DNA from: Niabella soli DSM 19437
GTDB lineage: Bacteria > Bacteroidota > Bacteroidia > Chitinophagales > Chitinophagaceae
Assembly: GCF_000243115.2 (NCBI RefSeq)
Contig: NZ_CP007035.1
Location: forward strand, 1,984,001 to 2,048,000
DNA length: 64,000 nucleotides
Reading direction: 5' to 3'
The notes beneath the pieces are model-generated. The model did no database searches, had not been told where the DNA came from, and saw nothing but the letters and a program-made list of their open reading frames with translations. The stretch's first letter is position 1, and every line of letters starts with the position of its first letter. This document shows, piece after piece, positions 34,599-37,637 of the stretch. The position numbers and the translations under genes are program-made.

Positions 34599-34610
34599 CC
34601 GCGCCACCTT

Positions 34611-34779
34611 CGTTGGTGTTGAGTCCGGCCATGAGCACAGAAAAAACACCAACGGCTTTCCGCCGCCGGTGTTATCGCCGCTGTAGGTGTTGCGTACAGC
34701 AGCGAGCGAGGGCAAAACACCCACAGCACTATTAGTTGGTGTTCTGCCATCGCCCCAGGCTCCACTCAACACCAACTAA
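34611..34779. repeat. Left triplet of REP-like hairpins
   Basis: Three hairpins: A, CGTTGGTGTT / AACACCAACG (34611..34620, 34645..34654); B, GCTGTAGGTGTT / AACACCCACAGC (34680..34691, 34716..34727; one mismatch); C, TTAGTTGGTGTT / AACACCAACTAA (34732..34743, 34768..34779). Each loop is exactly 24 nt. Loops of A and B share a GAGT/GCGT start and a purine-rich end; C is in the opposite orientation. They flank the transposase gene and match the right triplet. Confidence 0.85.
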
Positions 34780-34804
34780 GGAATAATTTTTCGTATCTTT
34801 CAGT

Positions 34805-35323
34805 ATGCTATCCTTAATCACTGAATACCCGGCTTTTTTCACCGCTACCAACCTGGAATGGAAGGCGCTCCTGAAACCCGACAAATACAAGGACATTATC
34901 ATCAACAGTCTGCGGTTTTTAGTAACTGCTAAACGCGTTAAGATTTTTGCTTTCGTAATCATGCGCAACCATATACATTTGATATGGCAGATGATGCCCG
35001 ATCATTCACCTGATGCAGTGCAACGCGACTTTTTGAAATACACGGCACAGCGGATAAAGAAAGATCTGGAGCGTTTGCATCCAGACACATTGCAGCACTT
35101 TAGGGTTGACGCAAAAGACAGAGCATATCAGTTTTGGGAGCGAAACGCATTAAGCATAGAATTACGTTCACACCCGGTTTTTATGCAAAAACTCAATTAC
35201 ATCCATCAAAACCCAGTAAAAGCGAGAATTTGTAAATTTCCTGAAGCATACAAATATTCATCAGCCGGGTTTTATGAAACGGGGAAAGACTATTGGGGAT
35301 TTTTAACACATTACCACGATTGA
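34805..35323 (+). CDS. REP-associated tyrosine transposase (RAYT)
   Basis: The 172-residue protein belongs to the Y1/IS200-like HUH transposase superfamily: MRNHIHLIWQ supplies the HUH motif as His56-x-His58, and NYIHQNPVKARICKFPEAY supplies the Tyr-helix with likely nucleophile Tyr132. The conserved ending PEAYKYSSAGFY resembles the W/YSS signature of RAYTs. Such proteins process single-stranded REP hairpins and are usually single-copy and domesticated. It is complete and lies between two triplets of REP-like hairpins. A -7-like TATCTTTC lies at 34794..34801, very close to the ATG. Confidence 0.92.
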   Translation: MLSLITEYPAFFTATNLEWKALLKPDKYKDIIINSLRFLVTAKRVKIFAFVIMRNHIHLIWQMMPDHSPDAVQRDFLKYTAQRIKKDLERLHPDTLQHFRVDAKDRAYQFWERNALSIELRSHPVFMQKLNYIHQNPVKARICKFPEAYKYSSAGFYETGKDYWGFLTHYHD

Positions 35324-35334
35324 ATGCAACCGTC

Positions 35335-35496
35335 GCTGTGGGTGTTGAGTGGGGCAGTGAGCAAGGGCAAAACACCCACAGCACTATTCGTCTCCGTTGG
35401 TGTTGCGCGCGGCCATGAACGTAGGAAAACACCAACGGCTTCGCCTTGTTTGTTGGTGTTTTATCCGGCTTCTCTCCCACGCGCAACACCAGCAAA
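35335..35496. repeat. Right triplet of REP-like hairpins
   Basis: Three hairpins: D, GCTGTGGGTGTT / AACACCCACAGC (35335..35346, 35371..35382); E, CCGTTGGTGTT / AACACCAACGG (35394..35404, 35428..35438); F, TTTGTTGGTGTT / AACACCAGCAAA (35449..35460, 35485..35496; one mismatch). Loops are 24, 23 and 24 nt. D and E lie in one orientation, F in the other, repeating the arrangement of the left triplet. F ends 2 bp from the stop codon of the M56 peptidase gene and may also serve as its terminator. Confidence 0.85.
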
Positions 35497-35498
35497 GG

Positions 35499-37637
35499 CT
35501 ACCTGCTCCTGAACACAATTGTATCAGTAACGGCTACTTTCGCCGGTTTCAATGTTGCCGTATAAGCTAAATTGAACTTATAAATTTTGGCAGGTTTCAA
35601 ATTAAGGGCAGCCGGTTTATCGCTTTTTATTGTAGAAGGCGACGCTTTATCGTCCTCCGCCTCCTTTTTATACCCTTTTACTTCAACAGGGATTAATTTT
35701 AAGGTTTGCCCTTCACGGGCAGGTGCAGCCTTCGTTTGTCTGGTTCCATAACCTGTTACTATTACTTCTTGCAGGGGCCTTTTTACACCATAACCCACAA
35801 CCACTACCTCGTCTGGTTTTTTGGCCGGTTGCGGGGCCTTATCGCTCTTCTCATCATTTGTGTGTATTTCTATCACCCCATTTTTCGCTTTTTCGCCATA
35901 TTCCATTTCCCTTGCCTTATCATTCTTAAACACATTTATCGATTTGATCTTCTCGGAATTTATATTTTTAAGAGCAGCCTTGTCCATCATCTTTCCGTCA
36001 AGCAGATACACGCCGTCGAACCTTTCAAAAGCTACCCCGGCAGATTCTGTATGCACCACACCATTGCCATCTGGACTAACCGTTCCATTGGCATTCTTTG
36101 CTGTAATACGCACCCCGGCAACTGCGCCATGTAACCGTAATTCTGGGGTTAGTAAAGTATCATCCGTGTTCTTTAGCCGCAATTGAATATTGCCTCGGTT
36201 ACTAGAATCGACTACCATAACTCCTTCTTTTTTGGTTGTTATAATTACCACACCATTCCTTCCTTTTTCTCCATACAATTTCTCTGCGGTATTGTCTTTC
36301 AAAACTGATATCGATTGGATCGTATTGGCATCAATTTCACTAAGACCTTTTTTGCTGTCAAGCTCCTTTCCATCTACAATGTACAATGGAGGATTTACAG
36401 ATACTGCGGTACGTGGCGACCGGCGCATCACATATACGGAATCAAACCCAAAGTCCCTTTCTCCATCCTGGCTCAAATGCATTTTTGCCGCGGGTGCGTG
36501 TCCATATTCCCGTTCGTATTTTTCCTTATTGGCATCCCATTCAGACCTGCGCATCCTTGTAACAATATCGGCAGGATCTTTTATATTCTTACTGAAGCCT
36601 GCATTCGCTACAACTACGTAATATTTCTTTTGACCCGGTTTGGACGGAGTGGTGTCCTTTGGGATCAATGCCAATTGCAGTTCTTTTTGGATAGTTTCGC
36701 TTAAGCTGCCGGTTGCCTTAGCGGGCAATTCTGTGGTAGCGCTCCCGGCTTCTTTTTTTACTTCGCGCAGTACTTCTTTTCTAAAAGCCAATAGCAGCAC
36801 CGCCACTACGGGCAAGAGGAATAAGAATTTTGCCAGGTGCACCCTCGCCGACCTAAGAGTATTCATCATAGCAATCCTGTTTTTTAAAGAAGAAAAATTA
36901 AAATGATTGGTAAACGCAAATTGTTTATTGCCCATTACCTTCAGCAACAGGTACTGATATTCCTTCTTATCCATCCCGTTTTGGAGCACCTGTTTGTCTG
37001 CCAGAAACTCCAGGTTCTGCTTGATGCTTTTTCGCAACAGCCAAACAAAAGGGTTAAACCAAAGCAGGATGCAAAGCAATTCGCTCCAGATAATATCCAG
37101 CGTATGCTTTTGTTTTACATGCACAAATTCGTGCCGGATAATCTCTTCCAATTCTTCGCCGCTGTGCAATTCAGTATTAATGAAAATAGCGTTACCAAAG
37201 GAAAAAGGCCGCATATCTTCATCCAACTGGTAAATACGCGTACGATCGTCAGATATCAGTTGTGCCTTTCTTTTAATGCGTAGAAAAGAGCAGAACATGA
37301 TCAGGAAACGGGCCAGTAAGATCAATGACCCCAGGGCAGCGATAAGCAGCACCCAGTCCCAGGTAGTTAAGGATTCAAAAAAAGAGGGATCGGTGGCTGC
37401 AGAAGAAAAACCAAATACGGGAATCAGTTGCACCAGGGCATTTCGATCCAGTTCTTTTTTTTGCAACTCAGGCATAATATCAATCAACGGAATGATAAAG
37501 CTCAGCATGCTATACCCCAACAGGTACCAACGGTTCCAGCCATAAAAGGTAAGCCTCCTTAACAGTAGCTGGTAAAACAAATGTACCACCGCAAGACAAA
37601 TACTCAATTTCAGAATATAATCAATAATGACAGGCAT
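35499..37637 (-). CDS. M56/BlaR1-type membrane peptidase with TonB-plug-like repeats
   Basis: The 712-residue protein has four N-terminal transmembrane helices around a zinc peptidase domain with HEFVH (His169, His173) and a downstream Glu near 210 (NLEFLADKQV). A further helix (about 270-285) leads to a periplasmic tail. The tail has two copies of a TonB-receptor plug-like unit, about 418-470 (YIVDGKEL ... GVVIITTKK) and about 543-594 (YLLDGKMM ... GVIEIHTN), followed by VVVVGYG and VIVTGYG boxes. It is encoded downstream of the BlaI repressor, so it probably senses an envelope signal and cleaves BlaI. The signal is unknown. Confidence 0.9.
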   Translation of the reverse strand: MPVIIDYILKLSICLAVVHLFYQLLLRRLTFYGWNRWYLLGYSMLSFIIPLIDIMPELQKKELDRNALVQLIPVFGFSSAATDPSFFESLTTWDWVLLIAALGSLILLARFLIMFCSFLRIKRKAQLISDDRTRIYQLDEDMRPFSFGNAIFINTELHSGEELEEIIRHEFVHVKQKHTLDIIWSELLCILLWFNPFVWLLRKSIKQNLEFLADKQVLQNGMDKKEYQYLLLKVMGNKQFAFTNHFNFSSLKNRIAMMNTLRSARVHLAKFLFLLPVVAVLLLAFRKEVLREVKKEAGSATTELPAKATGSLSETIQKELQLALIPKDTTPSKPGQKKYYVVVANAGFSKNIKDPADIVTRMRRSEWDANKEKYEREYGHAPAAKMHLSQDGERDFGFDSVYVMRRSPRTAVSVNPPLYIVDGKELDSKKGLSEIDANTIQSISVLKDNTAEKLYGEKGRNGVVIITTKKEGVMVVDSSNRGNIQLRLKNTDDTLLTPELRLHGAVAGVRITAKNANGTVSPDGNGVVHTESAGVAFERFDGVYLLDGKMMDKAALKNINSEKIKSINVFKNDKAREMEYGEKAKNGVIEIHTNDEKSDKAPQPAKKPDEVVVVGYGVKRPLQEVIVTGYGTRQTKAAPAREGQTLKLIPVEVKGYKKEAEDDKASPSTIKSDKPAALNLKPAKIYKFNLAYTATLKPAKVAVTDTIVFRSR

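Follow-up and report, generated by a model that had tools for sequence, protein, structure and literature searches.

RAYTs of subclass 2.6 occur mostly in Bacteroidetes, are tabulated with the motifs NH[LIV]H, WQ and YIH[QN]NP, and are already known to be flanked by "atypical secondary structures" that have copies elsewhere in the genome (PMC6006769). As one published account has it, recognition of REPs has been studied on REPs with a GTAG foot and a short loop (PMC8266576). The window, by which we mean the whole stretch of 64,000 nucleotides that was analysed, corresponds to C1:1984001-2048000 of a 4.70-Mb, single-contig genome (labelled G000) and contains one RAYT gene surrounded by six long-loop hairpins. 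The locus is very probably a REPtron comprised of a subclass 2.6 RAYT and its cognate REPs, in which hairpins recur as inverted pairs (REPINs).

The RAYT gene and its flanking hairpins

The features of the locus are listed below, with the matches of a covariance model in brackets.

34612-34653, + strand: hairpin A, 9-bp core stem, 24-nt loop beginning GAG (34604-34661, 58.3 bits)
34659-34682: perhaps part of another inverted hairpin, lying between A and B; read by eye and without a model match
34675-34784: REPIN B-C
34677-34679: exact GCC foot of hairpin B
34683-34724, + strand: hairpin B, 24-nt loop beginning GCG, one stem mismatch (34675-34732, 64.8 bits)
34735-34776, - strand: hairpin C, inverted partner of B (34727-34784, 59.4 bits)
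34805-35323, + strand: RAYT (TnpA-REP), 172 aa, intact frame, motifs NHIH, WQ and YIHQNP
35338-35379, + strand: hairpin D, which over the model length is 84% identical to B (35330-35387, 64.4 bits)
35388-35501: REPIN E-F
35396-35436, + strand: hairpin E, 23-nt loop, 77% identical to A (35388-35444, 59.1 bits)
35452-35493, - strand: hairpin F, inverted partner of E (56.6 bits)
35499-35497, on the strand of F: exact GCC foot of hairpin F

All three subclass 2.6 motifs are present in the predicted protein. Pfam Y1_Tnp scores above its cut-off on this ORF, and the NCBIfam model for REP-associated tyrosine transposases (NF047646, REP_Tyr_transpos) gives 79.8 bits, 0.2 bits under its curated cut-off of 80. 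The structure predicted from a 16-row alignment (A5) has a pLDDT of 92.4, and its best match by fold is 4er8, a complex of RAYT and REP (E 2.4e-8, TMq 0.62). By motifs and fold the gene belongs to RAYT (TnpA-REP) subclass 2.6, which is typical of Bacteroidetes. The genome contains one close copy of the RAYT and two distant paralogues (41% and 27%). The 41% paralogue, at C1:4159 kb (L056:1864-2550), is flanked by different hairpins with 3-nt loops. The RAYT is preceded by a RarA-like and a GNAT gene and followed, on the opposite strand, by an M56 peptidase gene (35499-37637). The product of the latter carries a Plug domain and a SusC/RagA signature and is only 52% identical in G016, the nearest relative found, compared with 94% for RarA.

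The preliminary description had placed three hairpins on each side of a single RAYT, with the first two in one orientation and the third inverted. Both points were borne out, the strand order being + + - on either side when judged from the asymmetric loop, which has GAG or GCG at one end and an AAA-like sequence at the other. The loop is 24 nt in A, B, C, D and F, so that a fixed length of 24 nt holds for five of the six window hairpins and fails genome-wide. An exact GCC foot is found in only two of the six; the GTAG of hairpin B sits within the stem and not as a foot. Of the stem correspondences that had been proposed, A with E and B with D stand, and C with F (55% identical) does not. We therefore rejected the further proposal of a duplicated three-hairpin module, since the order is A-B-C upstream but B-like, A-like and other downstream, C and F disagree, and the unit found elsewhere is an inverted pair. 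Each side of the RAYT is best read as one inverted pair (B-C or E-F) with one extra + hairpin (A or D). B and D are more alike than either is to its own G016 counterpart (71% and 76%), and the gC and gG hairpins of G016 are 93% alike, which suggests that sequence has been exchanged between the two flanks of the gene.

Copies, structure and pairing of the hairpins

A search for GTTGGTGTT-N20-28-AACACC found 10 matches per strand genome-wide and none for the reversed control, confirming the further copies that had been anticipated; the looser pattern GGTGTT-N14-40-AACACC gave 27 matches compared with 7 for the control. The covariance model, trained on 25 hairpins (19 from the same genome and six from L037), returned 32 matches at E <= 0.0015. 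These represent 31 distinct places, six at the window locus and 25 elsewhere; 19 of the 31 belonged to the model's own alignment and 12 did not. The arrangement of six hairpins around a RAYT gene is thus confirmed and lies well beyond chance expectation. The REP unit is 58 nt long and a REPIN is approximately 110-130 bp.

We aligned 80 hairpins from G000, G016 and G011 (85 before antisense duplicates were removed; G016 and G011 sampled from 10 stretches each). The loop is 23-27 nt across this alignment, with conserved ends, in agreement with the unusually long loop first described. The outer stem covaries and the inner stem (GTGTT/AACAC) is nearly invariant, with 94.3% of stem cells paired. 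Stem covariation was 0.291 compared with a mean of 0.171 for shuffled alignments (none of 500 reached the observed value) and did not exceed 0.131 when the stem was slid; six of the 11 stem pairs had changed on both sides, a number reached by 58 of 500 shuffles. The foot columns are G in 55, C in 73 and C in 67 of 79 rows. Pairing inside the loop was unsupported: among the best 40 column pairs, those within the loop showed low excess covariation or were paired in 42-67% of rows, and single folds of A-F showed no common inner stem.

Neighbouring hairpins in the G000, G016 and G011 stretches were arranged as + then -, with feet outward, in 27 of 35 pairs (the rest being four --, three ++ and one -+), and hairpins without a detected partner were found in L070, L080, L082 and L083. 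Loop position 2 is A or C in both hairpins for 25 of the 27 +- pairs, and the two hairpins differ there in 21 of the 25 (p 4e-4), or in 16 of 20 (p 0.005) after removal of five G016 pairs at presumed orthologous sites. This position is an imperfect mark of subtype because its label differs between genomes at two orthologous sites (window E-F/L135 and L084/L142) and because B and D, although 84% alike, differ there.

Twenty-six of the 32 hairpins share at most 10 nt with any greedily chosen ORF. Sixteen lie between convergent ORFs and none between divergent ORFs, as would be expected if they were mainly RNA elements, such as terminators or mRNA 3'-end structures, maintained by selection and the RAYT merely one adjoining gene. 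The covarying stem, the presence of hairpins in G011, which has no close RAYT, and the position of both terminator-like sites of our scan in the 3' arm of hairpin A (34645-34673) also fit this explanation. However, two such sites is what shuffled sequence would give (2.5 expected), no Rfam family reached threshold, and RNA elements would not be expected to pair in inverted orientation, to carry a foot beyond the stem or to have short-loop homologues beside other RAYTs. We consider this explanation improbable.

Relatives, loop length and gene content

At E <= 0.01 the model matched 20 of 59 genomes, G000 included, and among the matches listed the highest counts were at least 42 in G016, at least 32 in G000 and at least 19 in G011. 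Many of the matches listed in other genomes cover only 33-35 nt; in the stretches examined, these are GTTGGTG-type stems with loops of 4-5 nt. In three genomes of the same genus (G003, G004 and G012) short-loop hairpins surround RAYTs that are 66% identical to that of the window, and in G004 and G012 a strict caller also reported imperfect hairpins with 7-14 nt loops alongside those with 5-nt loops. No short-loop GTTGG hairpin was found within 300,023 bases of G000 stretches (overlaps counted twice). In a tree of 25 RAYT rows (L039 omitted as broken, loop classes assigned by eye), the window RAYT and its five nearest rows, all long-loop, form a cluster (93/87), and two further long-loop rows (L098 and L033) are placed among short-loop rows. 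Loop class requires three changes on this tree, as few as in 0-1 of 500 shuffles, and a single clade of all eight long-loop rows was disfavoured (p-AU 0.04).

That loop length differs between RAYT lineages, being long in the window clade and mostly 4-5 nt beside the 66%-identical RAYTs of its congeners, looks new; among the open-licence papers searched by title and abstract, none was found to describe long-loop REPs or a GCC foot in this group. Related RAYTs of one genus whose hairpins share stem and foot and have loops of either 4-5 or about 24 nt form a natural pair, with which one can ask which hairpin features are recognised by the enzyme and how the RAYT and its REPs change jointly.

The preliminary description took identical hairpins present in all relatives irrespective of the RAYT as evidence against a RAYT-REP system, and this is seen in part. 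In G011 (a single contig, 99% complete), the window order recurs for RarA, GNAT, one model match (L175:2452-2509, between GNAT and M56) and M56, and the RAYT is absent; the only RAYT-like protein found in this genome is 26% identical. Either the RAYT left and the hairpin stayed, or the RAYT arrived where a hairpin already stood. Because G011 has 19 matches and no close RAYT, REP copies can exist without a resident enzyme, and G011 is a natural case of hairpins outlasting, or preceding, theirs.

Differences in gene content between G000 and G016 cluster at REPINs. Across nine pairs of loci, length differences of 250 bp or more were found in six of 13 spacers with hairpins compared with five of 58 without (p 0.003), or in five of 13 compared with five of 58 (p 0.014) without the doubtful case L208/L192, where matches overlap in repeats; these counts are rough, being based on whole loci, ORFs of at least 100 aa and hairpin-bearing loci only. 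At C1:1470.3-1472.0 kb of G000 (L206:6259-7955), a DUF1801 gene and an AHSA1/ArsR-type pair are set apart by three same-direction REPINs or parts of them. Here G016 is without one 608-bp unit of gene plus REPIN, and the DUF1801 gene between two same-direction REPINs is missing from it. At C1:2521.6-2523.1 kb (L053:2559-4145), three REPINs are interspersed with a methyltransferase gene and a gene of 172 aa that matches no Pfam family, and in G016 C60 (L180:501-6563) a type III restriction-modification gene pair has hairpins on either side. An HTH gene beside the REPIN at 1812 kb was set aside as a signal, its presence meaning little because the family occurs in 14 of 17 genomes of the genus.

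Age and activity of the locus

The preliminary description spoke of an active or recent RAYT-REP system. A RAYT with an intact frame beside its REPs agrees with this, but insertions are shared with G016, whose RAYT is split, and recent activity is no more than possible. An old REPtron that is now inactive, whose hairpins are fossils and whose RAYT is dying or domesticated, is compatible with our preferred reading and is possible, though we lean against it. Several REPIN insertions are common to G000 and G016, with flanks approximately 78-91% identical, and the RAYT is in two overlapping pieces in G016 and also in two pieces in G003. At G016 C191 (L195:6883-7440), a REPIN and approximately 445 bp of further sequence are missing from G000. 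No clean empty site for this REPIN was found; a 58-nt spacer in G000 keeps, as read by eye, an apparent remnant of half a hairpin, which would also be expected of an inactive system. By contrast, the frame of the window RAYT is intact, the hairpin stems still covary, and hairpins at 2522372 and 2523033, 661 bp apart in the L053 array, are near-identical.

REPINs might also act as cassette ends, such that a gene enclosed by two in the same direction would be excised and reinserted by the RAYT, giving REPIN-gene-REPIN-gene-REPIN arrays as at 1470-1472 kb and 2521-2523 kb, with the RAYT itself as one cassette. We regard this as unlikely. At 1470 kb, the best-resolved case, insertion of REPINs and later deletion between repeats is simpler because in G011 degraded AHSA1 (SRPBCC-type) and DUF1801-like genes adjoin each other and the model has no match between the two.

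The reading of the locus as a REPtron is directly supported by the conserved hairpin structure, the copies, their pairing, their position mostly outside predicted genes, and the link between loop length and RAYT lineage. At one spacer G011 has no REPIN where G000 carries one, and the short-loop relatives retain both stem and foot. Points against it are the exact GCC foot in just two window hairpins, the G011 matches in a genome lacking a close RAYT, the NF047646 score below its cut-off, the hairpins that have no detected partner, and the number of two-sided stem changes, which some shuffles also reached. We infer binding, cleavage and mobilisation, and roles for the foot and loop. By analogy with TnpA-REP of E. 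coli, the RAYT would recognise the folded single strand at the foot and inner stem and would cut the REP strand using Tyr132. The cut strand would then be joined at another site, and spacers would in this way be seeded with REPINs.

It is highly improbable that the locus is an ordinary IS200/IS605 element whose ends are hairpins: its TnpA has the HUH/Y1 fold in common with the window protein, but the genome has one close copy of the window gene and two distant paralogues with no multicopy unit of gene plus ends, inverted pairs occur without the gene, and the neighbouring genes scanned are not tnpB. Judged by eye, the hairpin arms do not fit the attC core site of integrons.

The closest described system is TnpA-REP/RAYT subclass 2.6 (Bertels group 5), with which the locus shares its motifs, its occurrence in Bacteroidetes, a similar protein length (median 179 aa there, 172 aa here), the lack of a GT[AG]G foot, and flanking structures that recur in the genome (PMC6006769). 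Those structures are called atypical and weaker, and the passages that describe them mention no long loops, GCC foot or two loop classes, although Table S1 of that work may (PMC6006769). Like the E. coli REPtron and its BIMEs, the locus has one gene with flanking REPs, pairs of a REP and an inverted REP, and a foot 5' of the hairpin, whereas the E. coli REPs have a GTAG foot and a bulged stem in place of the GCC-like foot, 11-pair stem and 23-27 nt loop found here (PMC8266576). Dimers are also common in GTAG REP families, where heterodimers are often preferred (PMC3733652). Loops in those families are 2-20 bp in Table 1 of that study, with inner regions of up to 27 bp only where these consist of complementary residues (PMC3733652), whereas we found no covariation inside the window-type loop.
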